NCBI GenBank assembly: GCA_020723165.1
Contig: DYJK01000025.1
Location: forward strand, 1-37,207
Length of the DNA stretch: 37,207 nt
Origin: Melioribacter roseus
GTDB taxonomy: Bacteria; Bacteroidota; Ignavibacteria; Ignavibacteriales; Melioribacteraceae
Reading direction: 5' to 3'
Within the stretch, counting starts at the first letter, position 1. Each line of letters opens with the position of its first letter. Below, in pieces: positions 4,788 through 37,207 of this stretch. The translations under genes were made by a program, and so were the position numbers. Under the pieces are notes generated by a model that searched no databases, was not told the DNA's origin, and saw nothing but the letters and a program-made list of their open reading frames with translations.

Positions 4788-5344
4788 AACAATATTTCAA
4801 AGATACGTGGGATGGAATTTGGACCGTACTGATCGGGATGAAAATTACATTTAAACATCTCTTCACGCCGGCAGTTACTATTCAATATCCAGATGTAAAA
4901 GTTAAATTACCGGACCGCGTTCGCAATAGATTATATGTTAATATAGATGATTGTATCGGCTGTGATCAATGTTCAAGGGCTTGCCCGGTTAGCTGTATCG
5001 AAATTGAAACCGTAAAAGGTGTCCCGGGTGAAGATTTAGGGACTACATCGAATGGCAAAAAGAAAGCTTTATGGGTTACAAAATTTAATATTGATTTCGC
5101 TAAATGCTGTTATTGCCAGCTCTGCGTTTTCCCGTGTCCAACAGAATGTATCTATATGACAGACATATATGAATTCTCTGAATACGATAGAAATAATTTT
5201 GTTTACAATTTCTCTGCTTTAACAAAAGAAGAAATAAATCAAAAGAAAACCAATTTTGAAAAATTCCAAGCGGAAAAAGAAGCACAGAAAGCAGCAGCAG
5301 CCGCTAAACCTAAAACCGATACTCCGCCGGCTGCTCCAAATTGA
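4784..5344 (+). CDS. nuoI: NADH-quinone oxidoreductase subunit I (NuoI), two 4Fe-4S clusters
   Basis: Ferredoxin-like subunit carrying clusters N6a and N6b. Two full CxxCxxCxxxCP motifs are present: Cys57/60/63/67 (CIGCDQCSRACP) and Cys108/111/114/118 (CCYCQLCVFPCP). The N-terminal amphipathic segment with 'WTVLIGMKITFKHLF' anchors it to the membrane arm. The last 25 residues or so form a Lys/Ala/Pro-rich tail that looks disordered and is not needed for cluster binding. The gene overlaps nuoH by ATGA. Confidence 0.97.
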   Translation: MKQYFKDTWDGIWTVLIGMKITFKHLFTPAVTIQYPDVKVKLPDRVRNRLYVNIDDCIGCDQCSRACPVSCIEIETVKGVPGEDLGTTSNGKKKALWVTKFNIDFAKCCYCQLCVFPCPTECIYMTDIYEFSEYDRNNFVYNFSALTKEEINQKKTNFEKFQAEKEAQKAAAAAKPKTDTPPAAPN

Positions 5345-5367
5345 AAAGTAATTATTAAGAAATATAA

Positions 5368-5865
5368 ATGGATTTCTATAACATAGTATTTTATTTGTTT
5401 GCGTTAATCACTGTTGTATCGGCGGCATTTGTCGTTACGACTAAAAATGTAATTCACTCGGCATTCTTTTTATTGTTTACATTTTTTGGAGTTGCCGGTA
5501 TCTACGTTTTACTCGGCGCAGATTTTATTGCAGTCGTTCAAATAATGGTATATGTAGGCGGAATATTAATACTTCTGCTTTTCGGCGTGATGCTTACTAA
5601 CAAAATTACCGATGTTGAAATAAGAACCGGCACTATTCATCTGTTACCGGCTGCAATAGGTGTTGGGGTTTTCATGGGCGCCTTAATTGCTGTGATGGTT
5701 TGGACGAACTGGAAATCAGTGCCAACAGAGATCCCGTTAACAACAACAAAAACTTTGGGTAATCTGTTAATAACAGATTACGTTTTAATTTTTGAGCTGC
5801 TCGGGATTTTATTATTAATTGCACTAATTGGTGCTGCTTCAATAGCACGGAGAGATAAAGAATAA
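5368..5865 (+). CDS. nuoJ: NADH-quinone oxidoreductase subunit J (NuoJ)
   Basis: Hydrophobic 165-residue membrane subunit with about five transmembrane helices. The conserved third-helix region 'GADFIAVVQIMVYVGGILIL' followed by LLFGVMLTNK is diagnostic of NuoJ, including the Tyr/Gly-rich kink. It ends with a short basic segment (ASIARRDKE), as in relatives. It lies 23 bases after nuoI and is separated from nuoK by 62 bases of repeat DNA. Confidence 0.95.
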   Translation: MDFYNIVFYLFALITVVSAAFVVTTKNVIHSAFFLLFTFFGVAGIYVLLGADFIAVVQIMVYVGGILILLLFGVMLTNKITDVEIRTGTIHLLPAAIGVGVFMGALIAVMVWTNWKSVPTEIPLTTTKTLGNLLITDYVLIFELLGILLLIALIGAASIARRDKE

Positions 5866-20665: not shown

Positions 20666-23600
20666 TTATTTTTTCAATACTTCATCTAAAAGATTTTTTA
20701 AATCATCCAACAAAAATGGTTTTGATATATAATGAGTTATACCTTTGGACAGAAATTCATCCTTATCTTCCGGCTTAGCATATGCAGTCACTGCTATAAT
20801 GGGGACGTTATGATATTCATCAATATTTCTAATACGACCGGTCAATTCTAGTCCATCCATTCCACCACCTAAATTTATATCCATTAAAATTGCATCGTAA
20901 GAGCTCTTATGAATTTTTTGAATTGCTTTATCAGCACTTTCTGCAAAATCTAATTCACAAAAGTTTGATAATTTTATCCCAACAGCTTCCCTTGCATATT
21001 TATCATCTTCAATATAAAGTACTTTTTTAGTAATACCTTCGGGTGGTTGAACGCTGCTATTTTTATTCCCTTCCTCCATTTTACTCGATTTTAGTTCTTG
21101 CATATCAGGGACAATTTCGAAAGGAATTTCAACTATGAATGCAGAACCTTTGCCTTCTTCACTTTCTAAATGAATATTTCCATTCAATAACTCGACATAT
21201 TTTTTTGTGATAGTTAATCCAAGACCGGTTCCTTCAAAACTGCGGCTATGACCCTCACTTACTTGTCTAAATTCTTCCCAGATAATATCTTGCTTATGTT
21301 TTGGTATCCCTATGCCGGTATCAATAACTTTAATAATTAGATAATCTTTGTCGTTCTTTAAGACTTTATCCAAGATTATTTCAATCCCGCCGTGGTGTGT
21401 ATACTTTATTGCATTACTTAATAGGTTATTGATAATCTCCCATATCAGTTGTTCATCGGATCTAATTAAAGGCAGTCTGCACATAATATTTTTCTTAAAG
21501 AATAGTTTTTTCTTCTCGGCGGTTTTCTTAAAAAGTTTATACTCTTCGTCAACGATTTTTTCTACATCAACATTGACAAATTTTATTTCTGTTTTTTTGA
21601 ATTCAAGTTTAGTAACGTCCAAAATTTTATTTAATGTCTCGGTTAATCTCTTGGATGATTCATAAATACCTTCAGCTAATTCTTTATCTTCATGATTGGT
21701 AAGGTTCGCAGCTAAAATTTCTGCAAAGCCAATAATACCAACAAATGGCGTGCGGAGTTCATGGCTCATATTTGCGAAGAAATTAGTTTTAATTCTGTTC
21801 ATTTCTTCTGCTTTTTCTTTAGCAGCAATCAACTCTTTTTCCATAGCTTTCCGATCGGTAATATCACGAGCGACCGTAGAATATAATTCCACTTCGCCAT
21901 TTTGCGATTTATGAGCAATCATAATTTGAAGTACCGGTATTTCGTGTCCATCCCTATGTAGTAGGCTAGTCTCACCATTCCAAATTCCTTCTTGTGCTGC
22001 TTTAGGCAGAACCTCATTCATTATAAACGAACGCATCGATTCCGGGTGCCCTAATATGATAGGAAAGCCGGTTAAATCTTCTTTTTCGCCAATCCCCACC
22101 AAATTCCTACCGCCGCGATTAAGATAAAGTGCCATCCCATCCTTATCAGCCATGCCTACAAAATCGCTAGTTGATTCAAGAATGGCTATTAGTCTATTAC
22201 GTTCCTCTTGAGCTTTCTTTTGTAAAGTGATATCACGTGCAACACCTATCAGGGCAATAAATTTGCCATCTTTATCTTTAACAAGTGATGTAGAAAGCCA
22301 GATAGAAAACTCGGTTCCATCTTTTCGTTTATTGAGTAATTCACCTTGCCAACCGCCTTTTAAAGTTGCCGGAAGAATGGCACTAACAATTTCTTTTGGA
22401 TTACGGTCAGATCGAACCATCGTCATAGACTCCCCTTGCAACTCTTTTTGAGTATATCCATAAGTTTTTTCGAAAGCTTCATTAACGAAAATGAGGTTAT
22501 CATTTGCATCTGTAATGCTCACACATTCGTTTACACTTTGCACTGCATTGCTGAGGAGATGAAGAACTTTCTCGGTGCGTTCGCGTTCCTTTTCCGCACG
22601 TTTGCGCTCAGTGATATCAACCGCGGCTCCGAACAAGCCGATAACATTACCGGTTTTATCTTTCAATGGGAAATAACGGGTATCGAATGCAAGTTCGTTG
22701 GCTTCGGCAATAAATGAACACATTTCACCGGAGAGTGTTTTATTTATGTACTCCAATATTTCGGGATTATCACGGTACATATCAAAAACAGATTTCCCAA
22801 CAACCTCGCCTGGTTTCAAACCAAGTTTTTCTAATCCTTTCCCTTCCGATAAAGTAAATCTTCCGTCTTTATCTAGCGAAAAAAGAATAACCGGCACATT
22901 ATCAATAATTACACTCAATTGCTGCTGTGTCTTCTGTAATGATTCCTCTGCTCGTTTTCGTTCGGTAATATCACGAACTACAATGATTATAGCCGTTATA
23001 TTATTTGTTCCGTCCTTTATAAACGAAATTGTATGCTCGGTAGGGAAAATATCACCATTTTTTTTCTTGAAAAGAAATTCAAATCGTGCTGCTTCGTCTC
23101 TCTCAAAAGATTCAAATATTTTTTTGCCGAAAATATCATACTGTTCCCTATCAACATGCAAAATTTCCGTACTCTTATTACGAGCTTCATTTAATGAATA
23201 ACCGAACATTTCTTCAGCAGCAGTATTCATGTTCATAATTGTTCTATCTTTTGATATTACAAAGACAGCATCTTTTTGAGAATTAAAAACTGTATGAAAC
23301 CATATTTCAGATTCCATCAAAGCGGCGGTTCGTTCCCTAATCAGGTTTTCCAGATTTTCTATAAGCCACACCCGTTCTAAGGCAGTGCCTATTTGATTAC
23401 CAACAGCAAAAAAGGTATCCATTTCATCATCTGTAAACAAATCTTTTTCGGATCCGACAAGATTCATCACACCAAGAGTTTCTTCGCCGCTCCACAAGGG
23501 AACTGATGCGTGGTAAAATATACCATGTTGATATTTGTTTTTTTTCTGTAAGCGTTCGCACTCAAGAATATTTGTTACCCTATCTAATTCACCAGCGATA

Positions 23601-24367
23601 AGTTTTCGCCAACAATTACAATCAGATTCATAAAATTCATCAGTATCAAGTTCCGGCGGCAAACCTTTTTTAGCAGCTAACCTATGACTATCATTATTTT
23701 TTTTCAGGAGAATCCACCCGGCTTTAATACCCGGTAATTTTATTCCCTCTTCTAAAGCTTTATCCAAAACTTCTTGTTCACTTTTGCATTTATTTAGTTC
23801 TCTTGCAATATTGTATAATCCGCCTAGGGTGATGTTTGAGCGTTTTAATTCCCCGTTTATTTGTACGGCTTGTTCATATGTCGATATCAGCAAATCTAAT
23901 ATCTGCTGTCTCTCAGATGAAATAAAATGACGTTCACCGCCAAGAGATATTTCCATACCAAGCTGTACTTTTTCACTTTTTCTTAATTCTAAGTTGGTAA
24001 GTATATAATGGATACGTGCAAGCAGATACTTTTCATCATAAGGTTTCCTGATAAAACTATCTGCGCCGACTTGCAGACCATTAATTATATCCCTTGCTTC
24101 ATTAAGAGATGTGAGAAGTATTACCGGTATATGTTTTAAACGATTATCGGATTTTACTCTCTTGCAGAATTCATAACCATCCATAACGGGCATTATTATA
24201 TCGCTGATAATTAAAAGCGGTTTGTAGTCCTTTAAATATTCTAATGCTTCTACCCCGTTATTTACAATTGAGGGATTATACTGATTTTGTAAAAGAAAAT
24301 ATTTTAGTTTTTCAGCTTGGGTAAGACTATCTTCAACAATTAGTATATCTTTATTTTTAGCCGGCAT
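20666..24367 (-). CDS. Hybrid histidine kinase: REC-GAF-PAS x4-HisKA-HATPase-REC
   Basis: A 1233-residue soluble kinase with no membrane segment. Domains: receiver 1 (about 6-125, acceptor Asp56, Lys108 in IRKPYDE), a linker (about 125-175) like that of the neighbouring kinase, GAF (175-335), four PAS/PAC units (350-470, 480-590, 600-715, 720-838), HisKA with His869 in MSHELRTPF, HATPase with 'NNLLSNAIKYTHHGG' and GIGIPKHKQ, and receiver 2 (about 1108-1233, Asp in AILMDINLGG). The GAF domain has three cysteines (250, 252, 270) in a CxC...EC pattern. The N-terminal receiver could take phosphate from the cluster's CheA; the C-terminal one is a normal hybrid-kinase receiver. It is the last gene of the cluster, 47 bases downstream of the REC-kinase. 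Signal and final target are unknown. Confidence 0.9.
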   Translation of the reverse strand: MPAKNKDILIVEDSLTQAEKLKYFLLQNQYNPSIVNNGVEALEYLKDYKPLLIISDIIMPVMDGYEFCKRVKSDNRLKHIPVILLTSLNEARDIINGLQVGADSFIRKPYDEKYLLARIHYILTNLELRKSEKVQLGMEISLGGERHFISSERQQILDLLISTYEQAVQINGELKRSNITLGGLYNIARELNKCKSEQEVLDKALEEGIKLPGIKAGWILLKKNNDSHRLAAKKGLPPELDTDEFYESDCNCWRKLIAGELDRVTNILECERLQKKNKYQHGIFYHASVPLWSGEETLGVMNLVGSEKDLFTDDEMDTFFAVGNQIGTALERVWLIENLENLIRERTAALMESEIWFHTVFNSQKDAVFVISKDRTIMNMNTAAEEMFGYSLNEARNKSTEILHVDREQYDIFGKKIFESFERDEAARFEFLFKKKNGDIFPTEHTISFIKDGTNNITAIIIVVRDITERKRAEESLQKTQQQLSVIIDNVPVILFSLDKDGRFTLSEGKGLEKLGLKPGEVVGKSVFDMYRDNPEILEYINKTLSGEMCSFIAEANELAFDTRYFPLKDKTGNVIGLFGAAVDITERKRAEKERERTEKVLHLLSNAVQSVNECVSITDANDNLIFVNEAFEKTYGYTQKELQGESMTMVRSDRNPKEIVSAILPATLKGGWQGELLNKRKDGTEFSIWLSTSLVKDKDGKFIALIGVARDITLQKKAQEERNRLIAILESTSDFVGMADKDGMALYLNRGGRNLVGIGEKEDLTGFPIILGHPESMRSFIMNEVLPKAAQEGIWNGETSLLHRDGHEIPVLQIMIAHKSQNGEVELYSTVARDITDRKAMEKELIAAKEKAEEMNRIKTNFFANMSHELRTPFVGIIGFAEILAANLTNHEDKELAEGIYESSKRLTETLNKILDVTKLEFKKTEIKFVNVDVEKIVDEEYKLFKKTAEKKKLFFKKNIMCRLPLIRSDEQLIWEIINNLLSNAIKYTHHGGIEIILDKVLKNDKDYLIIKVIDTGIGIPKHKQDIIWEEFRQVSEGHSRSFEGTGLGLTITKKYVELLNGNIHLESEEGKGSAFIVEIPFEIVPDMQELKSSKMEEGNKNSSVQPPEGITKKVLYIEDDKYAREAVGIKLSNFCELDFAESADKAIQKIHKSSYDAILMDINLGGGMDGLELTGRIRNIDEYHNVPIIAVTAYAKPEDKDEFLSKGITHYISKPFLLDDLKNLLDEVLKK

Positions 24368-24414
24368 CTTTTACCCTTTCATTTATACATCCAAACTAAT
24401 AGATAGATATTGAT

Positions 24415-25671
24415 CTATTTTTTTAGCGAAAAGAAGAAAGTAGCACCGTTATCCGGGTAACCTACAGCCCATGTTAATCCACCATGACGCGCAATAATTC
24501 TGCGGACATTTGCAAGACCGATTCCGCTTCCTTCAAATTCTTTTTCGTTATGCAAACGCTGGAAAACACCAAAAAGTTCTTCGGCATAATCCATATTAAA
24601 ACCAACGCCATTATCTTGTACTGAAAAAACTATTTCACCATTTTTATTTTCATATTTAATACTGATCTCTGCTGTATCACGCTTTCTTGTAAACTTGACC
24701 GCATTACTTAACAAATTTTGGAACACAAGTTTTAGCAGTAAGGGATCAGCTTGAACATTTGGTAGTTGTTCAATATTCCAGTTTATTTTCCGGCCTACAC
24801 ACTGTGGACCTAATTCATTTATCACGTCACGTATTATTTCGTTTGGATCAAGCCCGGTAATATTAATCTTTGTTCTGCCGGTTCTAGAATATGAAAGGAG
24901 TGCATCAATTAAAGAATCCATTTTTTTTGCCGACCCGGATATAACAGACAGATAATGTTTTACCTCATCATCAGCTTGATCGTTTATCTTACCTTTTAAC
25001 AATGAGATAAATCCGTCGATGTGGCGCAACGGTGAACGCAAATCGTGGGAAACCGAAAAGGCAAATGTTTCCAGCTCTTTATTACTTTCTGCAAGCTGGC
25101 TATTTAATTTGCTAAGTTCATCTTTAGCCTTTTCGAGTTCACGATTTTTCTGTATAGCAGTTTCATAAGTAGACATTAATAGATCGATAATTTGTATTCG
25201 ATCCGATGTAATTAAATGTTTTTGCCCGGAAAAATAAATCTCTACACCTAGTTGAGATTGTCCGTGTTTTCTTAATTCAAGATTGGCTTGTATATATTCT
25301 ATCCTCGATAGTAGATATTCTTCATCATAAGGCTTTACAATAAAATTATTTGCGCCGCACAACAAACCGTTGATAATGTATTCCGAATCTGATAGTGATG
25401 TTAAAAGAATCACTGCTATATGGTTAAGCTTATCATCGGATTTGATAATTCTGCATAGCTCATAACCATCCATCCCCGGCATTAATATATCGCTTAAGAT
25501 GATAGAAGGATTAAGTTCGGGAATAATTTTAAGTGCTTCGTTTCCATTCGATGCAGTTTCAACTTGATATGATTTTGATTCTAAAAAATATTTAAGCTTT
25601 GCTGCTTGTGTTGGGCTGTCTTCAACAATAAGAATTGTAGGGTGATTATTTTTTTTGTAACCGGGCTTCAC
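24415..25671 (-). CDS. Receiver-histidine kinase (REC-HisKA-HATPase)
   Basis: A 418-residue soluble protein: receiver at about 12-130 (acceptor Asp61 in LSDILMPGMDG, Lys113), linker with LGVEIYFSGQKHLITSDR and 'LLMSTYETAIQKNRELE', a short coiled coil, HisKA with His209 in SVSHDLRSPLRHIDG, and HATPase with 'FQNLLSNAVKFTRK', VQDNGVGFN and GSGIGLANVRRI. The kinase core resembles the bacteriophytochrome-type HisKA group. The start is GTG 25671, with AGGAGG six bases upstream. The receiver plus linker (about 165 residues) is clearly paralogous to the N-terminus of the next kinase. A receiver in front of a kinase with no other sensor suggests that phosphorylation by CheA is its input; this is inference. 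A 439-base repeat-containing gap separates it from cheB. Confidence 0.92.
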   Translation of the reverse strand: MKPGYKKNNHPTILIVEDSPTQAAKLKYFLESKSYQVETASNGNEALKIIPELNPSIILSDILMPGMDGYELCRIIKSDDKLNHIAVILLTSLSDSEYIINGLLCGANNFIVKPYDEEYLLSRIEYIQANLELRKHGQSQLGVEIYFSGQKHLITSDRIQIIDLLMSTYETAIQKNRELEKAKDELSKLNSQLAESNKELETFAFSVSHDLRSPLRHIDGFISLLKGKINDQADDEVKHYLSVISGSAKKMDSLIDALLSYSRTGRTKINITGLDPNEIIRDVINELGPQCVGRKINWNIEQLPNVQADPLLLKLVFQNLLSNAVKFTRKRDTAEISIKYENKNGEIVFSVQDNGVGFNMDYAEELFGVFQRLHNEKEFEGSGIGLANVRRIIARHGGLTWAVGYPDNGATFFFSLKK

Positions 25672-25708
25672 TTAATCCCTCCTATATAATATACTTTATA
25701 AAACAAGT

Positions 25709-25992
25709 TGTGTGAAATAATTTATAAACCGTTCCGTCTAAATAACATCACGTAAGTGAACTGTTTTATTTCCTTAGAATTTTCATTAAACCATGGTTTA
25801 CAAGTTGTTTTAAAAAATCCGCTTTAATTATGAACTCACCCTAAATCCCTCTCTTAAACTAAGAGAGGGACTTTTCAAAACATCCCGGCACAACCCCTTC
25901 TCTTTCCCAATAGAAAACATCGGGACAAGTTTAAGAGAAGGGGTCGGGGGATGAGTTCAAATACATTGACATAATTTTCACACTGTCTGTAA
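25709..25992. repeat. Nested repeats in the gap between cheB and the REC-kinase gene
   Basis: An inner 129-base element (25831-25959) starts TGAACTCACCC and ends with the inverted TGAGTTCA. It holds two hairpins, CCCTCTCTT/AAGAGAGGG (25847-25869, perfect nine pairs) and ACCCCTTCTCTT/AAGAGAAGGGGT (25893-25944, perfect twelve pairs). Outside it, TTGTGTGAAAtaATT at 25708-25722 faces AATTTTCACACTGTC at 25973-25987, the same end sequence as in the 17136-17312 element. The whole gap 25672-26110 shows no coding frame. If the cluster is one transcript, these hairpins could lower expression of the two kinases relative to cheB. Confidence 0.65.
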
Positions 25993-26110
25993 TACCTTGG
26001 CTAATGAAAGTTAGCTTACGTTTTCATAACGCATTATCCATAAAAGTCATTTAGACCACAGCTTTTCATTTTTTTATTCACACATAGATTTGTTATATAA
26101 TCCATAACAT

Positions 26111-27196
26111 TTAACTGATAACATTTTTATTATAATTATGATCGGCAAGTATTTTAAGGATTACAGCAATCTTTTCAGGCGGTAAAACATAATCGACCCC
26201 ATTAAGTTTAATAGCTTTACCCGCCATTCCATGAACTATTGAACTTTCTTCGTCTTGTGCAATTGTTGCAGCGCCGCTATCCTTTAATAATTTTAATTCC
26301 TCGGCACCATCTGTTCCCATACCGGTAAGCAGAACACCAATTGAGTGCTTTCCGTAAACTTTGTTTATAGAACGAAACAAAAATGAAACTGATGGGCGAA
26401 GATTATTTTCCGGTTTGTCTTTGCTTAGTAAGATTCTATATGTATCGTCAATACCCATATGAAAGCTGTCGGGTGCAACATAAACGTTACCGGCTGTTAT
26501 CATCTCATAATGTGCTGCAATATGAATTGGCATACCGGTAGTCTGGGATAACCACTCAACAAATCCTTGAAGAAATCCCGTTGCGATGTGCTGTACAATT
26601 AAAATCGGCAAAGGAAAATCCTTACCTATAGAAGATAAAATTTTTTGTAGTACTATTGGACCGCCGGTTGAGGCCCCCATTGCAACAACCTGGTAAATAC
26701 CTTTTTCACTTTTTGATTTTGTTGTAGTTATAATTTTCTTAAAACCATTTGGAGACGTTTCAGATAGTTTTGATAAATGCGGCCACCGTCTTACAACTTT
26801 TACTTCAGACATAAGTTTTATCGTGTTAATTAATTCGGCAGAGGTAGAATGAAAATCGGGGTGACCGATACCGGCCGGACGCGGTAATACAGCAAGCGCC
26901 CCGGCTTCCATTACCTGGAATGTTTCGTTTATTTCTTCCCTTGCCAACGTACTGCTTACAATAATAATCGGGGTAGGCATTGTTTCCATTATTTTTCTTG
27001 TTGCTTTCAATCCGTCAAGTTTGGGCATATGCATATCCATAGTAATAACATCCGGATTTTTTATCTTCACCATTTCAATGGCTTCCACCCCATTATTTGC
27101 TATACCTATTACATGTATGTTAGAATCAGAACTTAGAATGTAAAACAACAATTCCTGAATAACGGGCGAATCTTCAACAATGAGAACTTTGATCAT
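26111..27196 (-). CDS. cheB: Chemotaxis methylesterase/response regulator CheB
   Basis: Removes methyl groups from receptor glutamates and may deamidate glutamines. The N-terminal receiver (about 1-120) has Asp9, acceptor Asp54 (ITMDMHMPKLDG) and Thr83. The C-terminal esterase domain has the Ser-His-Asp triad in MGASTGGP, VQHIATGF and LLTGMGTDGAEEL. The 361-residue length is normal. The conserved receiver Lys is replaced: the site reads VLPRPAG, with Arg106 where most family members have Lys. It lies 364 bases downstream of cheA across a hairpin-bearing gap and is read in the same direction. CheB with the partial CheR gives this cluster its own adaptation pair. Confidence 0.96.
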   Translation of the reverse strand: MIKVLIVEDSPVIQELLFYILSSDSNIHVIGIANNGVEAIEMVKIKNPDVITMDMHMPKLDGLKATRKIMETMPTPIIIVSSTLAREEINETFQVMEAGALAVLPRPAGIGHPDFHSTSAELINTIKLMSEVKVVRRWPHLSKLSETSPNGFKKIITTTKSKSEKGIYQVVAMGASTGGPIVLQKILSSIGKDFPLPILIVQHIATGFLQGFVEWLSQTTGMPIHIAAHYEMITAGNVYVAPDSFHMGIDDTYRILLSKDKPENNLRPSVSFLFRSINKVYGKHSIGVLLTGMGTDGAEELKLLKDSGAATIAQDEESSIVHGMAGKAIKLNGVDYVLPPEKIAVILKILADHNYNKNVIS

Positions 27197-27419
27197 AATT
27201 AGTTTCCAGTTTTTTGTTTTCTAGTTTCGAGCTCTAAGTTTTTTGTCTCAAGTTTATGGTTTCGTATTGATAATTATTTCCAGTCTTGATGCATTTTATA
27301 CTTTGAATCTTTAATACTTGTTTTCCTGGTATTACTCATCAGCCTACAAACTTACCCTCAGTTTTTTCCGAAGGAATGGCTTCGCCAAACTGATGGGATT
27401 ACAAAAAGAACGATTATGT

Positions 27420-27510
27420 TTTGGCTTTAGCCGTATTAGATTTGTGTGATAGGGCTAAAGCCCTATGTTTCACTCTCAGTCCTTATTCCGTCTGCTAAAG
27501 CAGACGGTTA
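27420..27510. repeat. Two REP-like hairpins in the cheA-cheB gap
   Basis: AGGGCT-AA-AGCCCT (27451-27464) and CCGTCTGCT-AA-AGCAGACGG (27488-27507) are perfect six- and nine-pair hairpins sharing a GCT-AA-AGC core; a related GGCTTTAGCC lies just before them at about 27423-27432. The rest of the 27197-27560 gap has no coding frame. These may be REP-type repeats, and they could act as a processing or attenuation point between cheA and cheB. Confidence 0.6.
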
Positions 27511-27560
27511 TTTAGAACTCATCACTCAAAACTCAACATTGTTACACTTTACCCATCGTT

Positions 27561-29813
27561 CTAAACCAACTGTTTTATTACATCCAGCAAATTCCCTTGG
27601 TCAAAACTGCTTTTTACAATATATGCATTTGCCCCTACATCAATGCCATGTTCCCTATCCTCACGCGTTTCAAGTGCAGTGACTAAGATTACCGGTAATT
27701 CGGAGAATTTTTTGTCGGAACGAATCTTCTGTGTTAAATCAAAACCACTCATCCTCGGCATATCAACATCAGAGACAACAATATCAAATTCGCCCGATCT
27801 AAGTTGTGTATATCCATCCACTCCATCAACAGCAGTTTTTACATTATAGCCGGAAGTTTCTAAAATATTTTTTAACAACGTACGTGCAGTTATAGAATCT
27901 TCAACTACAAGAACGGATTTCTTTGCTTCGGACTTTTTATCAGTCTCTGCTGCCGGTTGTATTTGAATACCACGCGCTTTAACAGCTGATTTCATTAAAT
28001 CGGTAATATTTAAAATAGGCACCACTTCACCTGTCCCTAAAATTGATACGCCGCTTATATTACGGACACGATCCAATTGGGAACCAAGCCGTTTCACTAA
28101 AACTTCTTGCTCACCTAAAATTTCATCAACTAAGAATGCAATCCGTTTTTCCGCCGAATTAACAATAAGTACGGGCACATACTTGTTTTCATCAGTCAAA
28201 GTATTTTTAGTTTGTATTTCTAGTACTTCACTTAAACGCACCAACGAAATAGTTTGACCGTAAAATAAAATTGTCTCCCTATTTTCAACGGTTTTAATAT
28301 CATCTCTATTAATCCGCAGTACCTTCTCGATATATATTGTTGCAAAAACAAAGAGGCGGTCACCGCTTCGAATTATTACGCCCCTGATAGTCGCAAGAGT
28401 AATTGGCAATTCCAATAAAAATGTAGTCCCAATATTTGGATTAGACTCAACTGAAACTGCCCCTCCAATTTTTTCAATTTTTTCTCGTACTATCGCAAGC
28501 CCTAGTCCTCTGCCAGATAAATTTGTTATAATTGTACTCGTTGTAACCCCGGATTGAAAAATCAACCCAAGAGTTTCTTGCTTGCTAAGTTTATCAAAAG
28601 AATCTTGTGTAATCATACCAAGTTTTAGCGCCGAATTTCTAGTCTTGCCAAGATCAATCCCGGCTCCATCATCGGTAATAATAATTTCAATTTTATTCCC
28701 ATGTTTTTGAACAATCTCAATTTTAATTGAGCCACGAACAGATTTATTTTTTGTCTGCCGCTCAGCCGGCGTTTCTATTCCATGGTCGATACAATTCCTA
28801 ACTATATGAATTAACGGATCTTTAATCTCCTCCAGAATCCGGCGATCTATTTCAATGCCCTCACCTTTAATGATTAAATCAACTTCTTTCCCTTGGTCCC
28901 TGGAAAGATCACGAACCAACTTTGGAAATATTTCAAGCAGAGTGGAAAATGGCATCATTAAAGTTTTTTTCATATCGGCAATAAGATTATCTACCATACT
29001 TGAAAGTGTTCTATGTTCCTTTGCCGAAAAAGTCTCCAGTGTTGTTAATTTATTTCCAATCATTTTCACAAAATCTTCGTTCCATTCAAGAAAATGGTTA
29101 ATCTGTTTTTTGCCGTTTGAAGCTTGAGTGTCTTTAGTTTTATTGTTTTTCTCTGAATAAAAATTAGATTTCGCTTTCGACCAATTCTTTCCCCACGATG
29201 AAATGGCCGTATTTATTTCATGCAGCTCACGTAGTTTTTGTGCCGATGATAATTTAGCTGCTAAAAATTCTTCAGATTGCAGTAAAACCGAATTTAATTG
29301 ATTAATTGGAATCCTTATAGTCTGTGCCGTAAGATGTTTTTCTTGTATTAATGTCTGTTCTTTTTTGATTGACTCGGATAATTGTGATAAATCCGGTTCC
29401 GCCGATATATTTTTGTTATCTATTTCTTTAGAGAGCTCGCCAACTTTGCGTTTTAATTCATCAAGTTTATTATTATCCTTAGTTGAAAGCAGATTGTCCA
29501 GATAATTAACAGCAAGGTGGAATAAGTCTAATAGCCCGGCAGTTACTTCGAGCTTTCGATTTTTTAATTTAGAAAAAACATTTTCAAGCGACTGGCACAA
29601 GGTTTCTATTTCCAAATTATTAACAGCGCGTGCAGCTCCTTTTAAGCTGTGTGCTTCCCTGAATATAGTTTCTATTACTTTTATCTTGTTATCAGGATTC
29701 GTTTCTTTTTCTAATTCTATTAATCCTGACGAAATAGTTTTTATATGATCTTCTGCTTCTATCTTGAACGTCGCCAATAATTTTTTTAGAAAATCATTTT
29801 CTTTTTTAGGCAT
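27561..29813 (-). CDS. cheA: Chemotaxis histidine kinase CheA fused to a receiver (CheA-REC)
   Basis: Central kinase of the array, 750 residues. Order: HPt domain (about 8-110) with phospho-acceptor His55 in REAHSLKGAARAVNN; a variable region without a clear P2 domain (110-250); dimerisation P3; HATPase P4 with 'IHIVRNCIDHGIETPAER', ITDDGAGID and LSGRGLGLAIVREKI; CheW-like P5 (about 475-615); and a C-terminal receiver (about 630-750) with acceptor Asp682 in IVVSDVDMPRMSG. The fused receiver marks the Wsp/Frz-like, non-flagellar type of system, where it can serve as output or phosphate sink. ATG 29813 has AGAGGA eight bases upstream. No separate cheY, cheZ, cheC or cheD lies in the window. Confidence 0.96.
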   Translation of the reverse strand: MPKKENDFLKKLLATFKIEAEDHIKTISSGLIELEKETNPDNKIKVIETIFREAHSLKGAARAVNNLEIETLCQSLENVFSKLKNRKLEVTAGLLDLFHLAVNYLDNLLSTKDNNKLDELKRKVGELSKEIDNKNISAEPDLSQLSESIKKEQTLIQEKHLTAQTIRIPINQLNSVLLQSEEFLAAKLSSAQKLRELHEINTAISSWGKNWSKAKSNFYSEKNNKTKDTQASNGKKQINHFLEWNEDFVKMIGNKLTTLETFSAKEHRTLSSMVDNLIADMKKTLMMPFSTLLEIFPKLVRDLSRDQGKEVDLIIKGEGIEIDRRILEEIKDPLIHIVRNCIDHGIETPAERQTKNKSVRGSIKIEIVQKHGNKIEIIITDDGAGIDLGKTRNSALKLGMITQDSFDKLSKQETLGLIFQSGVTTSTIITNLSGRGLGLAIVREKIEKIGGAVSVESNPNIGTTFLLELPITLATIRGVIIRSGDRLFVFATIYIEKVLRINRDDIKTVENRETILFYGQTISLVRLSEVLEIQTKNTLTDENKYVPVLIVNSAEKRIAFLVDEILGEQEVLVKRLGSQLDRVRNISGVSILGTGEVVPILNITDLMKSAVKARGIQIQPAAETDKKSEAKKSVLVVEDSITARTLLKNILETSGYNVKTAVDGVDGYTQLRSGEFDIVVSDVDMPRMSGFDLTQKIRSDKKFSELPVILVTALETREDREHGIDVGANAYIVKSSFDQGNLLDVIKQLV

Positions 29814-29917
29814 ATTAATTTCCTCTTATTAATAGAAATTAACTAAGGAACCTTGACAATATTAGTTTAGCCGCAATTTTATTTTTTAATCCCGGTTAAA
29901 ACCGTCTTACCTAGTTA

Positions 29918-31564
29918 TCATTTTTCCACAATTTTGAATTGCTCAACAAGCTGTTTTAGTTTTTTCCCTAAGCCGTGAATATTTTCCACCGCAGTTTCCA
30001 CTTGTTTGGTACCGGCTACATTCTGTGTACTGGCTTGCTTGATGTTCTCCATTGCACTCGCTATCTGATCCATTCCTACAGATTGCTGCTGACTCGATGC
30101 CGCTATCTGTGTAGCCGCTTGTGATGCCTCCGTTATACTATCACTTAGCATTCGTATCGCTTCACCCGATTCTTTTACTTGTTTTATACCGGCTTCTACT
30201 GCCTTACTGCCTTGCTCGGTCGACATTACTGCATTACTTGTTGCCTTCTGGATATCCAATAATATCGTTCTTACCTGACCAGTTGCTTGTTTCGACTGTT
30301 CTGCTAAACTCTTTACCTCCTGGGCTACTACGGTAAATCCTTTACCTTGTTCCCCGGCTTTGGCTGCTTCTATTGCTGCATTAACCGCCAGTAAATTCGA
30401 TTGTTCTGCCAAATCATTTACCGTTGCTATTATCTCTCCTATCGCCTGGCTCTGCTCGCTTAATTTTACTATGCTATCTGCTATCAATTCCATCTGTTCG
30501 TTTATTTTATTCATCTTTTCTATTGTTTCTTCCACTGCTCTCTTTCCGCTTTGTGATACTTGCGCCGCTTTCTGTGCACTCTCGGAGACGTACTTTGATT
30601 TTTGTGCCGAGAGCTGTGATGTCTGTTTCACTTCTTCTACCGTGGTAGTTGTTTCGCTTACTGCTGTTGCAGTCTCTGCAGCACCTGATGCTACTTGTGC
30701 GGTGGATGCCAATACTTCATTTGTTGAAACAGCCAACACATTCACTCCATCAAAGATTTCTTTTGTTACATTCTTCAGATTATCTACCATTACCTTAACA
30801 GATTTGATAAGAATGCCGACTTCATCATTACGATTACTTTGCTGCACTCCAACGGTCAGATCACCATCGGAAACACGTTTGGCAATTGCAGCAATTCCTT
30901 TAAGCGGATTTGCAATGATTCTATTTAGGTACAAAGTCATCATGATTGAAACAACAATTGAGATTATACCAATTATCACAAAGAGGATTACAGCATTCTC
31001 AACTTTCTGTCCTGATATCTGAACATCAATCAAAGCGTTTTTTTCAGCATTGCTGCCTAATTCTTCGGCTATACTTCGTATTTTTTTATATCGTTCTATT
31101 TGTACGCCGGTTACGATTGTTTTTGCTTCATCCAATTTACCGGCATGTATTAGAGGTATTATTTGTTCTTCTCTTGTCTTTGCAAATTCTTCTCTTTCAA
31201 TTATTAACTCCTCTAATTTTTTGATTGTAGCCGGTTCACCACTATATCGTTCAAGAAGTTTAGAAATAATATTATCAATAACTTCACTACGTTCTAATAT
31301 CTCTTTATGCCATTTGTTTTGTTCTTCTCTATTCGATTCTAACATCATATCAAGCAAAGCTGCCCTTACACCATTTTCGTTTGTTCTTAAGGTTAAGAGA
31401 TCTGTTGCATTGATAAAATCATTTTCATAAAGATTTTTTTGTGATTTTTGAATATCGCTAATTGTTAAATATGCTGTTGTTATAACAACAATTAGAAATA
31501 TTATCACAAAACCAAAACCAATAAAAAGTTTGGTCTTAGTAGTTATATTAGAGAACCAATTCAT
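29918..31564 (-). CDS. Methyl-accepting chemotaxis protein with HAMP
   Basis: Transmembrane receptor, 548 residues. Helix TM1 at about 12-34, a helical periplasmic domain (35-188) of four-helix-bundle (4HB_MCP-like) type, TM2 at about 190-212, HAMP at 213-263 (Pro220, 'DGDLTVGV', 'DEVGILIKS'), then a long coiled-coil signalling domain with the hairpin tip '[20 protein letters not shown]' followed by [11 protein letters not shown]. The signalling helices have no visible gap. Its last 235 codons, coding positions 29991-30700, are about 90% identical in DNA, without gaps, to the HAMP-less receptor at 34841-35550. It sits between the PAS receptor and cheA and should feed CheW/CheA. The ligand is unknown. 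Confidence 0.95.
   Translation of the reverse strand: MNWFSNITTKTKLFIGFGFVIIFLIVVITTAYLTISDIQKSQKNLYENDFINATDLLTLRTNENGVRAALLDMMLESNREEQNKWHKEILERSEVIDNIISKLLERYSGEPATIKKLEELIIEREEFAKTREEQIIPLIHAGKLDEAKTIVTGVQIERYKKIRSIAEELGSNAEKNALIDVQISGQKVENAVILFVIIGIISIVVSIMMTLYLNRIIANPLKGIAAIAKRVSDGDLTVGVQQSNRNDEVGILIKSVKVMVDNLKNVTKEIFDGVNVLAVSTNEVLASTAQVASGAAETATAVSETTTTVEEVKQTSQLSAQKSKYVSESAQKAAQVSQSGKRAVEETIEKMNKINEQMELIADSIVKLSEQSQAIGEIIATVNDLAEQSNLLAVNAAIEAAKAGEQGKGFTVVAQEVKSLAEQSKQATGQVRTILLDIQKATSNAVMSTEQGSKAVEAGIKQVKESGEAIRMLSDSITEASQAATQIAASSQQQSVGMDQIASAMENIKQASTQNVAGTKQVETAVENIHGLGKKLKQLVEQFKIVEK
29991..30700 (-). repeat. 710-bp signalling-domain block shared with 34841-35550
   Basis: Aligned with a constant offset of 4850 bases and no gaps, I count about 66 differences in 700 bases (about 90% identity, by eye). 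Similarity stops sharply at both ends: beyond 30700 (the QVASG codons) and below 29991 the two receptors differ. The PAS receptor between them encodes a similar protein but with far more synonymous differences. Confidence 0.75.
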
Positions 31565-31601
31565 AGTTTGTTCTTCCTAATTATTATTGTATTGTTTTAC
31601 C

Positions 31602-34600
31602 TTATGTTTTATATAATTCAACGAGCTGTTCAAGTTTTTGCCCAAGGTTATATAAATTTTTAGCCGCCGACTCAGCTTGCTGCGTACCGATTACATTTTG
31701 TGCACTTGCTTGTTTAATATTTTCCATCGCTTGTGCAACCTGGTCCATCCCAACTAATTGTTGCTGACTGGATGCGGCAATTTGTGTAGCTGCTTGTAAT
31801 GCCTCTGTTATATTATCTGCTAAAACACGAATTGATTCTCCAGCGTCAGTCGATTGTTTAACCCCGGTTTCAACTGCCTTAGTTCCTTGTTCGGTAGCCA
31901 TAACAGAAGAACTGATTGCACGCTGAACATCACTTAATATAGAACGGACTTGTGAAGTTGCTTGTTTTGATTGTTCAGCTAAACTTTTAACCTCTTGTGC
32001 AACAACTGAAAACCCTTTCCCTTGTTCACCGGCTTTGGCTGCTTCAATTGCCGCATTTACTGCAAGAAGATTCGATTGGTCAGCTATATCGTTAACCGTT
32101 GCTATTATTTCTCCAATCGCCTGGCTCTGTTCGCTTAACTTAATTATGCTTTCAGCAACAGATTCCATCTGACCTCGAATATTATTCATACCATTAATCG
32201 ATTCCTCAACTGATTTTTTACCCGTCTGTGATACTTGAACAGCTTTTTGTGCATTTTCAGAAACATACTTGGCTTTTTGAGTGGCTACCTGAGCAGTCTG
32301 TTTCACTTCTTCAACTGTTGTTGTTGTTTGGTTAACGGCAGTAGCTGTTTCGTTTGCACTGGCCGCAACTTGCGTAGTTACAGTTAAAATCTCATTTGAT
32401 GAGGATACAAGAATTTTTGCCGCTTCGGTGATCTCCCGTGTTTGTTTCATTAAATTATCTGTACGCTCTGTAATGCGTTGTTCAAGTGTTCTATTTAATT
32501 CTTTCAACTCTTCATCTATTCTTTTCCGTTCGGTAATATCGCGTGCTGCTGCAAAAATACCCAGGACTTTTCCTCCCACATCTTTATAAACCGAAGCATT
32601 ATATAAAACATGAATAGCTCTACCGGAAATGTGACGGAGTGTTAGCGGATAATCTGTAACAAATCCCTCCTTAAAAACACGCCGATATCCTTCGCGTGCT
32701 TTTTCAGGTTCTGCAAAGTAATCTGAAAAATCTGTTCCTATAAGATTTTCTCGCGATACACCCGTAGCTTTTATTGTTGATTCATTTACGTCTGTAATTT
32801 TACCTTCCGGGCTTATTGTTACAAGCGGATCGAGTGATGCTTCGATTAAACTTCTTGCGTATTGGGATGCTTGCTTCTGTTCTGTTACATCCCGGGCTGC
32901 TGCAAATATGCCTAATACTTTTCCTTCGATATCTTTATAAAGAGAGGCGTTGTACAAAACATGCATAACTTTACCGGATGCGTGACGAATTGTTAATGGG
33001 TAATCTGTAACAAATCCTTCTTTAAAAACACGTTGATATCCTTCACGTGCTTTTTCAGGTTGTGTAAAGTAATCCGAAAAATCGGTCCCTATCAATTTTT
33101 CGCGTGATACACCGGTTGCTTTTATCGTAGATTCATTCACATCTGTAATTTTTCCTTCCGGACTAATAGTAACAAGCGGATCAAGCGATGCTTCGATCAA
33201 ACTTCTTGCATATTGCGATGCTTGTCTTTGTTCTGTTATATCGCGTGCCGCTGCAAAGACACCGGAAACTTTTCCTTCCGCATCCTTAAATAATGATGCA
33301 TTGTACAAAACGTGCATCAACTTGCCGCTTGAATGCCGTATCGTTAATGGATAATCCGTTACAAATCCTTTTTCAAATACTTGTCTGTAACCGGCTCTCG
33401 CTTTTTCGGGTTCTGTAAAATAATTGGAAAAATCCGTCCCAATTAGATTCTCCCGTTTAATACCGGTTGCTTTTATTGTTGTTTCATTTACATCGGTAAT
33501 TTTACCATCAGGACTAATAGTAACAAGCGGATCGAGCGATGCCTCGATTAAACTACGAGCATACTGCGAAGCGAAGCGTAATTGCTCTTCAGCGTGTTTT
33601 CTCTCGGTTATATCATTGCTCATTAGTAAGTATCCAATATGATTACCCGAAGAATCGTTCCTTCGCGTAACAACTACGCTTGCAAAAAATCGGGAACCAT
33701 CTTTACGGATACGCTGGAACTCACCTTCCGCTATTCCTTTCTCCAGGGCAGTCTTTAATAATTTATCAACTGCTCCTGATTTTAGATCCTCCGGTGTATG
33801 AAGTATACTTGAATCTTTGCCTAAAATTTCTTCCGATGAATAGCCATAATTAAGTCTAGCGCCTTCATTCCAGGAAAGGATGCGGTGATTTAAATCTTTC
33901 CCGATCAGCGAATACTTTGTAGAACTTTGCAATATATTATCTAAAAAGTTTTTCGTCTCGGTGAATTCCTTCATCACCTTTTTGTTATCAGTTACATCTC
34001 TTGCAGCAGCAAATACTCCCAAGACATTTCCTTTCACGTCCCGGTAAAGAGAGGCATTATAAAGAACATCGGTTAGCTTACCATCTTTATGCTTTATTGT
34101 AAGAGGATAGTCAACTACATAACCTTTCGAGAAAACTTGTTTATAACCGGCGCGTGCTGTTTCAGGTTCTGTGAAGTAATTCGAAAAATCTGTACCGATT
34201 AAATTTTCCCTTTTTATCCCCGTGGCTTTAACTGTTGATTCATTCACATCGGTTATTTTTCCGTCCGGACTAATAGTAACAAGCGGATCGAGACTCGCCT
34301 CAATTAAACTTCGGGCATATTGCGATGCTTGTTTCTGAATTGTTATATCTCTTGCTGCCGCAAACACACCGAGTACTTTGCCTTTATTATCTTTGTAAAG
34401 AGAAGCATTGTACAGCACATCGGAAAGTTTACCTTCTTTGTGCCTGATTGTAAGTGGATAATCAACTACGTATCCCTTTGAAAAAACCATCTGGTATCCT
34501 TCGCGTGCTTTTTCAGGTTCGGTGAAATAATCAGAGAAATCTGTTCCGATTAAATTTTCGCGCGATACGCCGGTAGCTTTAGTTGTTGATTCATTCACGT

Positions 34601-34730
34601 CTGTTATTTTCCCTTCCGGGCTAATTGTTACCAGCGGATCTAAACTCGCTTCTATTAAACTACGTGCATACTGCGAAGAACGTTTCTGTGAAGATGTGAA
34701 AAGAGTCATTAAATTATCTCCGTCCCACAT
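31602..34730 (-). CDS. Soluble chemoreceptor with six PAS domains, five of them near-identical
   Basis: A 1042-residue cytoplasmic receptor without membrane segments. Residues 18-251 hold PAS repeats 1 and 2, 252-386 a divergent PAS ([20 protein letters not shown]), 387-740 repeats 3 to 5, then a coiled coil and a signalling domain (about 760-1040) with '[20 protein letters not shown]'. Each repeat is about 116-118 residues and begins [20 protein letters not shown]. They share almost every residue over the first 50 positions and vary mainly in 'GKxxxVLYNAS' strands. ATG 34730 has GGAGG four to five bases upstream. No heme- or flavin-binding residues can be asserted from sequence. PAS domains usually sense redox, oxygen, light or small molecules; which one applies here is unknown. 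Confidence 0.93.
32511..34679 (-). repeat. Five in-frame PAS repeat copies inside the soluble receptor
   Basis: Copies 1-2 lie at about 33978-34679 and copies 3-5 at about 32511-33572, separated by one unrelated PAS unit. The period is about 345-354 bases. The proteins are nearly identical, while the DNA copies differ at many third codon positions (compare the [10 protein letters not shown] codons near 32840, 33200, 33540, 34290 and 34640). The copies are therefore not a very recent duplication. Confidence 0.85.
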
Positions 34731-34785
34731 TGTTCCTCCCTCTTTTTATTACCTATTTTTTCACAAATTCTTAGAGTTCATTAAT

Positions 34786-36237
34786 TTATTTTTCAATCAT
34801 CTTTTTTAGTTTGCGGGATATCTCTTGCAAATTCTGTACTGCCGTTTCCACTTGTTTGGTACCGGCTACATTCTGCGTACTGGCTTGTTTGATGTTCTCC
34901 ATTGCACTCGCTATCTGATCCATTCCTACCGATTGCTGCTGACTCGATGCAGCTATCTGTGTCGCCGCTTGTGATGCCTCCGTTATATTATCACTTAACA
35001 TTCGTATTGCTTCACCCGATTCGCTCACTTGTTTTATTCCAGTTTCTACTGCCTTACTACCTTGCTCGGTTGCCATAACCGCTCCGCTCGTTGCCTTCTG
35101 GATATCCATCAATATCGTCCGTACTTGTCCAGTCGCTTGTTTCGATTGTTCTGCCATACTCTTTACCTCCTGGGCTACTACGGTAAATCCTTTACCTTGT
35201 TCACCGGCTTTCGCCGCCTCTATTGCTGCATTAACCGCCAGCAAATTTGATTGCTCAGCCAAATCATTTACAGTTGCTATTATCTCTCCTATTGCTTGGC
35301 TCTGTTCGCTCAACCTTACTATGCTTTCTGCTATTGATTCCATCTGCTCGTTTATTTTATTCATCTTTTCTATTGTTTCTTCCACGGCTTTTTTTCCGCT
35401 TTGTGATACTTGCGCTGCTTTCTGAGCACTCTCGGAGACGTACTTTGATTTTTGTACCGCGAGCTGTGATGTCTGTTTCACTTCTTCTACTGTGGTCGTT
35501 GTTTCGCTCACTGCTGTTGCAGTCTCTGCCGCTCCTGATGCTACTTGTGAGCTCATCGTTGATATCTCGGCAGACGAAGATGAAACCTGGTTAATACTTT
35601 CCCTTAGTTGTATTGAAATATTACGCGTAAGTAAAAATGCTATAACCATACCGCCGGCAAAACCGATCAATGAAATAATTGACATAAAGAGAATAGTACC
35701 ATTCACACTCGATTCAACATTTTTTATTCCCTCGCTTTCCATTTTCGTTTGCAGAGTTTTGAATTTTTCGGCATTATCGATTAGTTCTTGTGTGAGCGGT
35801 TTTAATTGGTTAAAGGCAATATCTAATGCTTCGGATTTTTTCCCTTCTAAAAACATGGTTATAGTTTTCCCTTGTATAGTCATATTATTTTCATGATGCT
35901 TCTCAATATCGTTTAATAAATCAATCTCTTCCGTTGTTGATACCAGGTTCTTCATTTTCTCCAATGCATCGGTAAATGATTTGTAGTCCTCTTTTAACTG
36001 GCTATTGAACGATTGCTGTTCATTGGGGTAAAGGAAAAACGCCCGGTAGTGCGCAACCTGATCGCGAATTTCAAAACGGAGTTTATTCGCGCCATCTGCT
36101 AATCTCTCGTTGACTTCAATTAATTTGTTATAAGATCTATTAATAAAATTAAATGAATAAAAAGCCACGGCGGCTATTACAACCAATATTGTTATAAGTA
36201 AGATGTAACCGCCAAATATTTTTTTACCAATAGTCAT
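34786..36237 (-). CDS. Methyl-accepting chemotaxis protein lacking HAMP
   Basis: Transmembrane receptor of 483 residues: TM1 about 9-31, a helical periplasmic domain (32-178, 4HB/CHASE3-like with '[12 protein letters not shown]'-type helices), TM2 about 180-203, then only about 28 residues ([20 protein letters not shown]) before the signalling coiled coil that starts at QVASG. The other membrane receptor here has about 76 residues in the same place, so a HAMP-sized piece of roughly 48 residues is missing. The tip reads '[20 protein letters not shown]' followed by [14 protein letters not shown] 36237 has GGAG six bases upstream. It is the first receptor after cheW. It is not a truncated gene: both ends and both helices are present. 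Confidence 0.94.
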
Positions 36238-36337
36238 ATAGACTCCGACTTTTAATTATTCTTAATTCAACTATCTTTTGATTACTATATCCGGTCATAC
36301 CCAAATTTTGGAATCATCAAATAGGATTTAACACCAG

Positions 36338-36958
36338 TCAGATTTCTTCGTTAATAATAATTTTTTTATCTGCAATCAGTTTGGAGCCATCAAGTATCGT
36401 AATCCTATCACTTGTAATTCCTTTAAGATACTCTTCGCGTATGCCGGTAAGTGTAGGCAGAGATGGTTGAAGTTCATCAAATACAAAATCTTTTACCCCG
36501 ATAATTGAATCAGCTAATATTCCAAATTCTAAATCATTGGATTGCAGAATTATAACTTTATTCAAGTCGGTTAAACCCTTTTCCGGTAAGTCAAAAAATT
36601 TTTTTATATCCATAACCGACATTATTTGTCCGCGTACATTGATTATACCCATTATATAATTTGCGGTTATCGGTAAAGGAGTTAATTCTTTGAGAGGATA
36701 AACCTCGCGGACAAATTCTAACTCTATACCGTATGTTTCATAAGCCAGCATAAATAATAAAACACTCCGGTAGTTTATATTTTCATCCTTCTTTTGGCTT
36801 ATGCCGGCAAAAAGTTTCGCACGTTCCTTAAGTATATTTTCTTTTTGTTCTTCCGTAAAAGCCCAACCTCGTTCGAGTAGTGAAAATGTTTTATTAATTT
36901 TATCATGAATTTGGTCCCAATCGATATTCTTTGGTTTACGGGTCTCGTTTTTAATCAC
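36338..36958 (-). CDS. cheW: Coupling protein CheW with N-terminal extension
   Basis: Scaffold that links receptors to CheA, 206 residues. The CheW fold covers about residues 62-200: YRSVLLFMLAYETYGIELEF, VREVYPLKELTPLP, then 'YIMGIINVRGQIMSVMDIKK' and 'VIILQSNDLEFGILADSI'. The first 60 residues are an extra helical segment containing NKTFSLLERGWAFTEEQKEN and ILKERAKLFAG; similar extensions occur in CheW proteins that sit next to CheR-TPR genes. The start is GTG 36958, set by a strong AGGAGGTG five bases upstream, inside the end of cheR. Two bases separate the genes. Confidence 0.94.
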   Translation of the reverse strand: MIKNETRKPKNIDWDQIHDKINKTFSLLERGWAFTEEQKENILKERAKLFAGISQKKDENINYRSVLLFMLAYETYGIELEFVREVYPLKELTPLPITANYIMGIINVRGQIMSVMDIKKFFDLPEKGLTDLNKVIILQSNDLEFGILADSIIGVKDFVFDELQPSLPTLTGIREEYLKGITSDRITILDGSKLIADKKIIINEEI

Positions 36959-36960
36959 GA

Positions 36961-37207
36961 TTACACCTCCTGGTGTGCAGTAGAGTTAATTATTTCTATC
37001 AACCGTTTTGCAGTCATTCCATCAGATTCCGGCAGTACAAAATCCGGGGGATATTGTTCTAAAAGTTTAATAACATTATTAAAACTTTTTCTTGAATCGG
37101 AATATCTACCAAGCTTCAAATAGATATTACCAAGGACAAAATGGCCAATTATAAAACTGCGGTTTAAATACAGCGCCCGTTTTATAGCCGTAATTGCTTC
37201 TTCAATC
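36961..37207 (-). CDS. cheR: Chemotaxis methyltransferase CheR with C-terminal TPR, 3' end only
   Basis: The minus strand is open from the right edge to TAA at 36961-36963, giving 82 codons of a C-terminus. It starts with a TPR unit (EEAITAIKRALYLNRSFIIG, HFVLGNIYLKLGRYSDS) and ends with LPESDGMTAKRLIEII. The ALYLNRSFxxxHFxLG...LPESDG-TA-RL arrangement is the hallmark tail of CheR proteins with C-terminal TPRs (WspC-like); the methyltransferase domain itself lies beyond the window. It is two bases upstream of cheW and heads the visible cluster. The lack of an upstream start means it is not seen as a complete frame. Confidence 0.88.
   Translation of the reverse strand, partial: IEEAITAIKRALYLNRSFIIGHFVLGNIYLKLGRYSDSRKSFNNVIKLLEQYPPDFVLPESDGMTAKRLIEIINSTAHQEV
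36964..36971 (-). promoter_or_regulatory. Ribosome binding site deciding the GTG start of cheW
   Basis: AGGAGGTG (read on the minus strand) lies in the last codons of cheR, five bases before GTG 36958. It is one of the strongest sites in the window, and ties cheW translation to the end of cheR. Confidence 0.85.

Follow-up and report, generated by a model that had tools for sequence, protein, structure and literature searches.

The stretch of DNA analysed here, 37,207 nucleotides of Melioribacter roseus (assembly GCA_020723165.1, contig DYJK01000025.1, C149 in our numbering), is called the window below. It ends with its contig at 37207; the genome comprises 3.8 Mb in 193 contigs. The window carries a chemosensory gene cluster that closes with two histidine kinase genes, hk1 and hk2. 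Both kinases open with one unit, a receiver (REC) followed by some 60 residues predicted to form a hairpin and then a long helix, a region we term LINK. The features of the cluster are as follows.

36962..37206, minus strand: CheR-TPR methyltransferase, C-terminal 81 residues only (translation; the tail matches the CheR C-termini of relatives).
36338..36958, minus strand: cheW, downstream of cheR (Pfam CheW, E 9.9e-29).
34786..36237, minus strand: MCP1, a methyl-accepting chemotaxis protein (MCP) with a 4HB sensor and two predicted membrane helices (Pfam MCPsignal and 4HB_MCP_1; hydropathy).
31602..34730, minus strand: MCP2, a receptor with six PAS domains (Pfam, home-built hidden Markov models (HMMs), hydropathy).
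29918..31564, minus strand: MCP3, a 4HB-HAMP-MCP membrane receptor (Pfam, hydropathy).
27561..29813, minus strand: cheA-REC, with Hpt (His55), kinase, CheW domain and REC (Asp682) (Pfam; residue check).
26111..27196, minus strand: cheB, with REC (Asp54) and methylesterase (Pfam; residue check).
24415..25671, minus strand: hk1, REC (Asp61)-LINK-HisKA (His209)-HATPase (Pfam; residues; AlphaFold model with mean predicted local distance difference test (pLDDT) 88).
25087..25266, minus strand: LINK of hk1, a predicted beta-hairpin (residues 140-157) and the start of a long helix (158-228) (LINK profile, 107.6 bits).
20666..24367, minus strand: hk2, REC (Asp56)-LINK-GAF-four PAS-HisKA (His869)-HATPase-REC (Asp1163) (Pfam; residues).
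23798..23977, minus strand: LINK of hk2 (LINK profile, 86 bits).

The original prediction, made from the sequence alone, had listed these genes and domains and is borne out by Pfam, except that the CheR domain itself is absent from the window. It had also named the receiver aspartates of hk1, hk2 and CheA, and the residue check found all three right. The H-, N- and G-boxes are intact in both kinases and CheA keeps its Hpt histidine; the Pfam scan gave no P2 domain match in CheA. The four PAS domains of hk2 come from home-built HMMs. Hydropathy analysis found no membrane helix in MCP2. As had been stated, neither a cheY nor a flagellar gene occurs among the 20 window open reading frames (ORFs) that the Pfam scan took in, smaller ORFs being outside it. 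The genes do share one direction, the minus strand being used throughout, but the intergenic gaps, 364 nt between cheA and cheB and 439 nt between cheB and hk1, are wide enough to hold separate promoters.

Over their first ~190 residues, a stretch that extends past the receiver, hk1 and hk2 resemble each other. The LINK consensus reads GxEIxFxGxKHFITSxRxQILDLLLSTYExAxQKNxEL. The LINK profile (A3) was built from 57 of 58 chosen rows, the divergent row L079 being excluded, and in its own genome it finds two copies, those of hk1 and hk2 only. Pfam has no match for LINK of hk1, and no Pfam family matches more than three of the 57 LINK members (best E 0.0024). Among PDB chains the best match to profile A3 has E 0.047, and none reaches 0.001 with profile A2. 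A phmmer search with residues 1-190 of hk1 matched a solved receiver (chain 3gt7_A) over residues 8-152, a span that covers the receiver and also the beginning of the LINK hairpin. The AlphaFold model of hk1 (33 sequences, predicted template modelling score 0.63) places receiver helix 5 at residues 117-134, strands at 140-147 and 150-157, and a helix at 158-228 that holds His209.

The top Foldseek match to this model is LvrB of Leptospira (PMC13269768, PDB 8vc9), which resembles hk1 in its N-terminal receiver, signalling helix, dimerisation and histidine phosphotransfer (DHp) domain and catalytic (CA) domain. Receiver helix 5 of LvrB passes straight into the signalling helix, whereas the hk1 model has the predicted hairpin between the two. 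Phosphorylation of the LvrB receiver is described as causing the signalling helices to form a coiled coil, by which the kinase domains are freed and activated (PMC13269768). The words chemotaxis and CheA are absent from the main text of that paper.

The position of REC-LINK genes was followed in three genome sets. In the family set (79 genomes searched) a close cluster denotes a CheA-REC of at least 41% identity, and 11 such clusters were found, the window's included. Apart from the window's there are ten, and a REC-LINK gene is next after cheB in all nine of these whose sequence continues past cheB; eight of these genes have a kinase domain and the ninth (L051) is cut by a contig end. The tenth (G071) ends before cheB, and the cluster of G037 (36%, L054) is cut inside cheA. 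The GTDB set consists of the best 80 of 451 LINK-region relatives. Here cheB lies within 10 kb in 71 loci, and in 70 it is upstream, in the same orientation and no more than 500 nt away; the LINK unit follows cheB within 500 nt in 70 of the 77 testable loci, with a median gap of -3 nt when ORF starts are set at the first start codon. Nine loci are without cheB: in three the sequence upstream is no longer than 549 nt, in L070 cheA comes immediately before, and the other five have neither gene. The third set sampled 198 genomes of the organism's own phylum, a strong LINK match being one of 100 bits or more. Among 12 strong loci, ten stand beside cheB, that of G248 is directly after cheA and that of G146 on contig C6 is outside a che cluster. 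The order of the window cluster recurs in relatives and in other phyla, so that it is not a chance pattern.

The output attached to the unit changes from locus to locus. The 80 GTDB loci hold 87 LINK genes, which comprise 50 HisKA kinases, 20 GGDEF-EAL, 6 GGDEF and 2 HD-GYP proteins, 1 SpoIIE protein and 1 HisKA_2 kinase; 7 have no output domain (four short proteins) or are cut (three). The SpoIIE (L120) and HisKA_2 (L129) examples belong to the five loci that have neither cheA nor cheB. The genes spread over 15 named phyla, one of them archaeal; since many loci belong to metagenome-assembled genomes, the assignment of any single phylum may be wrong. Stand-alone REC-LINK proteins of ~230-260 residues in which no output domain was found also occur (L107 6540-7298, L112 9653-10441, L125 2769-3542, L091 7856-8602 and L137 11145-11840), and in L107, L125 and L091 they share the cluster with a REC-LINK kinase gene.

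The strongest argument for phosphate transfer from CheA to the REC-LINK receivers is that the input end stays fixed while the outputs are exchanged. The same finding bears on the opposite direction of flow, in which hk1 and hk2 would be extra inputs whose kinases phosphorylate the CheA receiver or CheB and so tune the array. The GAF and PAS domains of hk2 could sense signals of their own, and the receiver on CheA needs a role. Yet REC-LINK units at this very position also bear GGDEF, GGDEF-EAL or HD-GYP domains, which are unable to phosphorylate CheA, and the kinase CheS3 of Rhodospirillum centenum could not phosphorylate the receiver of its partner CheA3 (PMC3868531). We consider such a reversal quite improbable.

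The receivers of these proteins have a history in common. In a receiver tree of 178 rows and 113 columns, all 46 LINK receivers (thinned from 106) fall on one side of a branch with an approximate likelihood ratio support (SH-aLRT) of 88, together with four others, three of which are weak-LINK receivers; many inner forks are unresolved because there are only 113 columns. The LINK receivers lie apart from those of CheA, from those of CheB and from C-terminal receivers. Taken with the swapped outputs, the tree indicates that within one receiver lineage the linker, and for the most part the position, was retained as the output changed. The acid pair, the Thr/Ser and the Lys are conserved in 106 of 106 LINK receivers and the Asp in 105. 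The residue beside the acid pair is Ser in 98% of 66 LINK, 100% of 25 CheA and 94% of 50 CheB receivers. Among 19 single-domain receivers 36% have Ser there, and it is not the commonest residue at this position among 39 C-terminal receivers or among 22 other hybrid ones. The pattern common to LINK, CheA and CheB receivers is suggestive only. Across 40 loci, distances among REC-LINK units correlate with those among CheA proteins at r 0.43, compared with 0.17 for the attached kinase domains; all distance correlations exceed 500 shuffles.

The sequence upstream of the window bears on whether a CheY has been missed. The CheR domain of the window cluster is absent from the assembly, the only PF01739 match of the genome being the CheR of contig C9. 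The first gene of contig C53 is a cheW; in G054, G021 and G065 it matches best (49%, 43% and 39%) the cheW genes upstream of cheR, and C53 is for this reason very probably the continuation of the window cluster. With C53 added, the cluster very probably reads cheW-cheR-cheW-MCPs-cheA-cheB-hk1-hk2, the order found in relatives. The next gene upstream of the C53 cheW reads as an oxoacid-oxidoreductase subunit and not as cheY (named by reading, with no family scan). A cheY just outside the window, which the original prediction had held would refute it, was thus not seen at the presumed continuation; we reject this candidate with the caveat that the join of C53 to C149 is itself inferred.

A second che cluster lies on C9, with its own cheR, cheA and cheB and two single-domain receivers, and the genome has a flagellin match. 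One of these CheY-like proteins could be the true output of the window cluster, with hk1 and hk2 acting as phosphate sinks or scaffolds. The C9 cluster has a CheA of its own, however, the window CheA bears a receiver and gives no P2 match, and the catalytic boxes of hk1 and hk2 are kept, which makes this alternative very unlikely indeed. Motility probably has its own system, since the C9 cluster is separate and a flagellin is encoded.

Several points weigh against reading the REC-LINK receivers as dedicated acceptors of CheA phosphate. These can be summarised as (i) the evidence for transfer from CheA to hk1 and hk2, as the original prediction proposed it, is comparative: one conserved unit mostly follows cheB and keeps its identity as the output changes; (ii) CheB tracks CheA far better (r 0.71) than REC-LINK does (0.43); (iii) the junction in the hk1 model (residues 131-180) has block pLDDT values of 68-83; (iv) the two large gaps of the window may separate transcription units; (v) the GTDB set was seeded from che-linked proteins, 18 of its 80 loci are titled Pseudomonas, and it overlaps the family set at least at L055 (G017 on contig C11) and L065 (G023 on contig C106); (vi) a single-domain receiver stands upstream of the first cheW in the relatives G021, G065 and G019, and a REC-only gene precedes the first cheW in 11 of the 80 GTDB loci (home-built HMMs; lengths unchecked), so that clusters of this kind may in general have a CheY-like partner; (vii) in the distant CheA-REC clusters of G046 and G044 (32%; L052, L053) cheB is followed by a REC gene that lacks LINK; (viii) no cheA or cheB is nearby in five of the 77 testable loci (L083, L097, L120, L129, L132); and (ix) of 22 weak LINK matches in the phylum sample five were examined, and none of the five is in a che cluster, two of them being REC-LINK cyclases. 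The gene order that the original prediction expected in relatives holds in all nine close clusters that can be read past cheB, but has exceptions in L052, L053 and the G146 locus on C6.

The LINK loci outside che clusters imply that the unit is not strictly chemosensory. At G146, a genome of the same class, tandem REC-LINK and REC-LINK-kinase genes (L136, 8788-10983) lie away from cheA and cheB; the same genome also has a LINK gene after cheB (L137). In L139 (7064-8359) and L140 (7331-8635) a receiver and weak LINK are fused to a class III adenylate/guanylate cyclase, again outside che clusters. These cyclases are a distant branch of the same linker. Such loci are what would be expected if the N-terminal receivers served another kinase, or the kinase domain of the same protein, with the gene pair no more than a passenger of the operon. 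The isolated G146 pair, the weak LINK receivers fused to cyclases or kinases and the five loci with neither cheA nor cheB all speak for this view. It sits poorly with the near-fixed place after cheB, often overlapping it, in many phyla and in archaeal loci, and with the presence of a CheA-REC cluster in all five family genomes that have LINK in the phylum sample. We judge it unlikely.

In its composition the window cluster fits the ACF ("alternative cellular functions") class of chemosensory systems. Its CheA has the C-terminal receiver of that class; receivers occur on ~34% of CheA proteins, mostly in classes F3, F5, ACF and Tfp (PMC10782961), so that the trait is typical of ACF and not exclusive to it. 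Of the CheR-TPR protein the assembly holds only the 81-residue tail. Multidomain regulators, hk1 and hk2, take the place of a single-domain CheY. The set CheW-CheR-TPR-CheW, CheA-REC and CheB is complete in relatives, whereas here cheR is cut and C53 is joined by inference.

The Wsp system is alike in its CheB and its gene order. The Wsp system of Pseudomonas further resembles the window cluster, read with C53 as its probable continuation, in CheR-TPR, two CheW, a CheA with receiver and without P2, and a regulator with an output domain (PMC5907407). The description of the cluster as Wsp-like, given by the original prediction, stands for the parts list but fails for the output, which is not a diguanylate cyclase. 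WspR consists of a receiver, a long helix and a diguanylate cyclase, whereas the window has kinases, and three receptors; neither hk1 nor hk2 has a GGDEF match in Pfam.

The original prediction knew of no well-described example of such a set; published systems contradict this. In R. centenum, CheA3 phosphorylates an N-terminal receiver of the kinase CheS3 (PMC3868531). The R. centenum Che3 system shares with the window a CheA with C-terminal receiver, CheR, CheB, two CheW, an MCP and a kinase with N-terminal receiver. It differs in that CheS3 combines two N-terminal receivers with PAS and an HWE kinase, where the window has two REC-LINK kinases in tandem, and in that a partner CheY3 is in the cluster, where the window shows no single-domain receiver and hk2 has a fused C-terminal one. 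Around cheR-TPR, ~40% of regulators carry a HisKA-HATPase module and others GGDEF, EAL, phosphatase, GAF or PAS domains (PMC3447774); the available part of that survey names no shared linker among them. Because both the transfer from CheA3 to CheS3 and this share of kinase-bearing regulators are already published, the circuit is not new in kind. LINK as a common input end is the addition, and no description of it was found in the accessible text of open-licence papers, PMC9239204 included.

An H-box pattern matched 46 of 70 LINK kinases, and in the other 24, read by eye, each His lies in a related box. Among 66 LINK kinases from all loci (window, family, phylum and GTDB, two loci being counted twice), 32 have a fused C-terminal receiver, five are followed by a single-domain receiver gene and eight by another REC-bearing gene; 15 have neither and six are cut. 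In L122, L124 and L130 a 225-residue regulator, of OmpR type by Pfam in L124 and near-alike in the other two, is next to the LINK kinase; a further kinase gene stands beside it, which the regulator may serve instead. In L060-L064 and L068 the LINK kinase has three C-terminal receivers and is followed by a separate REC-kinase gene without LINK, which suggests a longer relay.

Other features of the locus can be stated briefly. A larger gene overlooked in either wide gap was rejected, as the ORFs that lie in the gaps or reach across them are only 25 to 78 residues long. Scans for promoters (41 sites, 35.3 +/- 5.5 expected) and for terminator-like sites (9, 5.8 +/- 2.1 expected) were uninformative. 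A perfect 8-bp hairpin, CCGTCTGCTAAAGCAGACGG, at window positions 27488-27507 inside the cheA-cheB gap is a possible terminator or attenuator. Genes for the beta and epsilon subunits of ATP synthase lie 3' of hk2. Five of the six PAS domains of MCP2 have an 11-residue string in common (at residues 28, 145, 397, 514 and 631). Elsewhere in the genome, on contig C172 (L009), two near-identical cheW genes (666-1154 and 4929-5417) stand either side of a receptor gene, apparently the result of a recent duplication.

We propose, as a likely reading, that the window encodes a chemosensory system of ACF type with hk1 and hk2, two receiver-controlled histidine kinases, as its dedicated outputs. The three receptors, with CheW, would set the activity of CheA, and CheR and CheB would tune the receptors by methylation. 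From phosphorylated CheA, as the comparative data indicate, phosphate would reach the N-terminal receiver of each kinase; the receiver on CheA probably drains phosphate. By analogy with LvrB, phosphorylation would change receiver packing and helix geometry and so act on kinase activity through LINK, whose signalling helix is continuous, in the hk1 model, with the first helix of the kinase. Phosphate would go from hk1 to a response regulator encoded elsewhere, and from hk2 to its own C-terminal receiver, possibly with onward transfer. CheA could switch the two kinases either on or off, the precedents being opposite: CheS3 is inhibited by CheA3 (PMC3868531), whereas LvrB is activated.

We further hold it slightly more likely than not that REC-LINK serves ACF systems as a general output adaptor that has not been described before, a receiver dedicated to CheA and equipped with a hairpin-plus-helix transmission element, which evolution has moved between outputs. 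If so, the protein under the control of a chemoreceptor array could be predicted with the LINK profile, in bacteria and in some archaea. Many chemosensory systems that do not serve motility have an output that is unidentified; if REC-LINK marks the acceptor of CheA phosphate, these outputs would become readable from sequence. A single assay would then serve many phyla, as the same input end is found on kinases, cyclic di-GMP enzymes and other proteins, and the family would offer natural domain swaps for the study of how one receiver and linker can drive unlike outputs.

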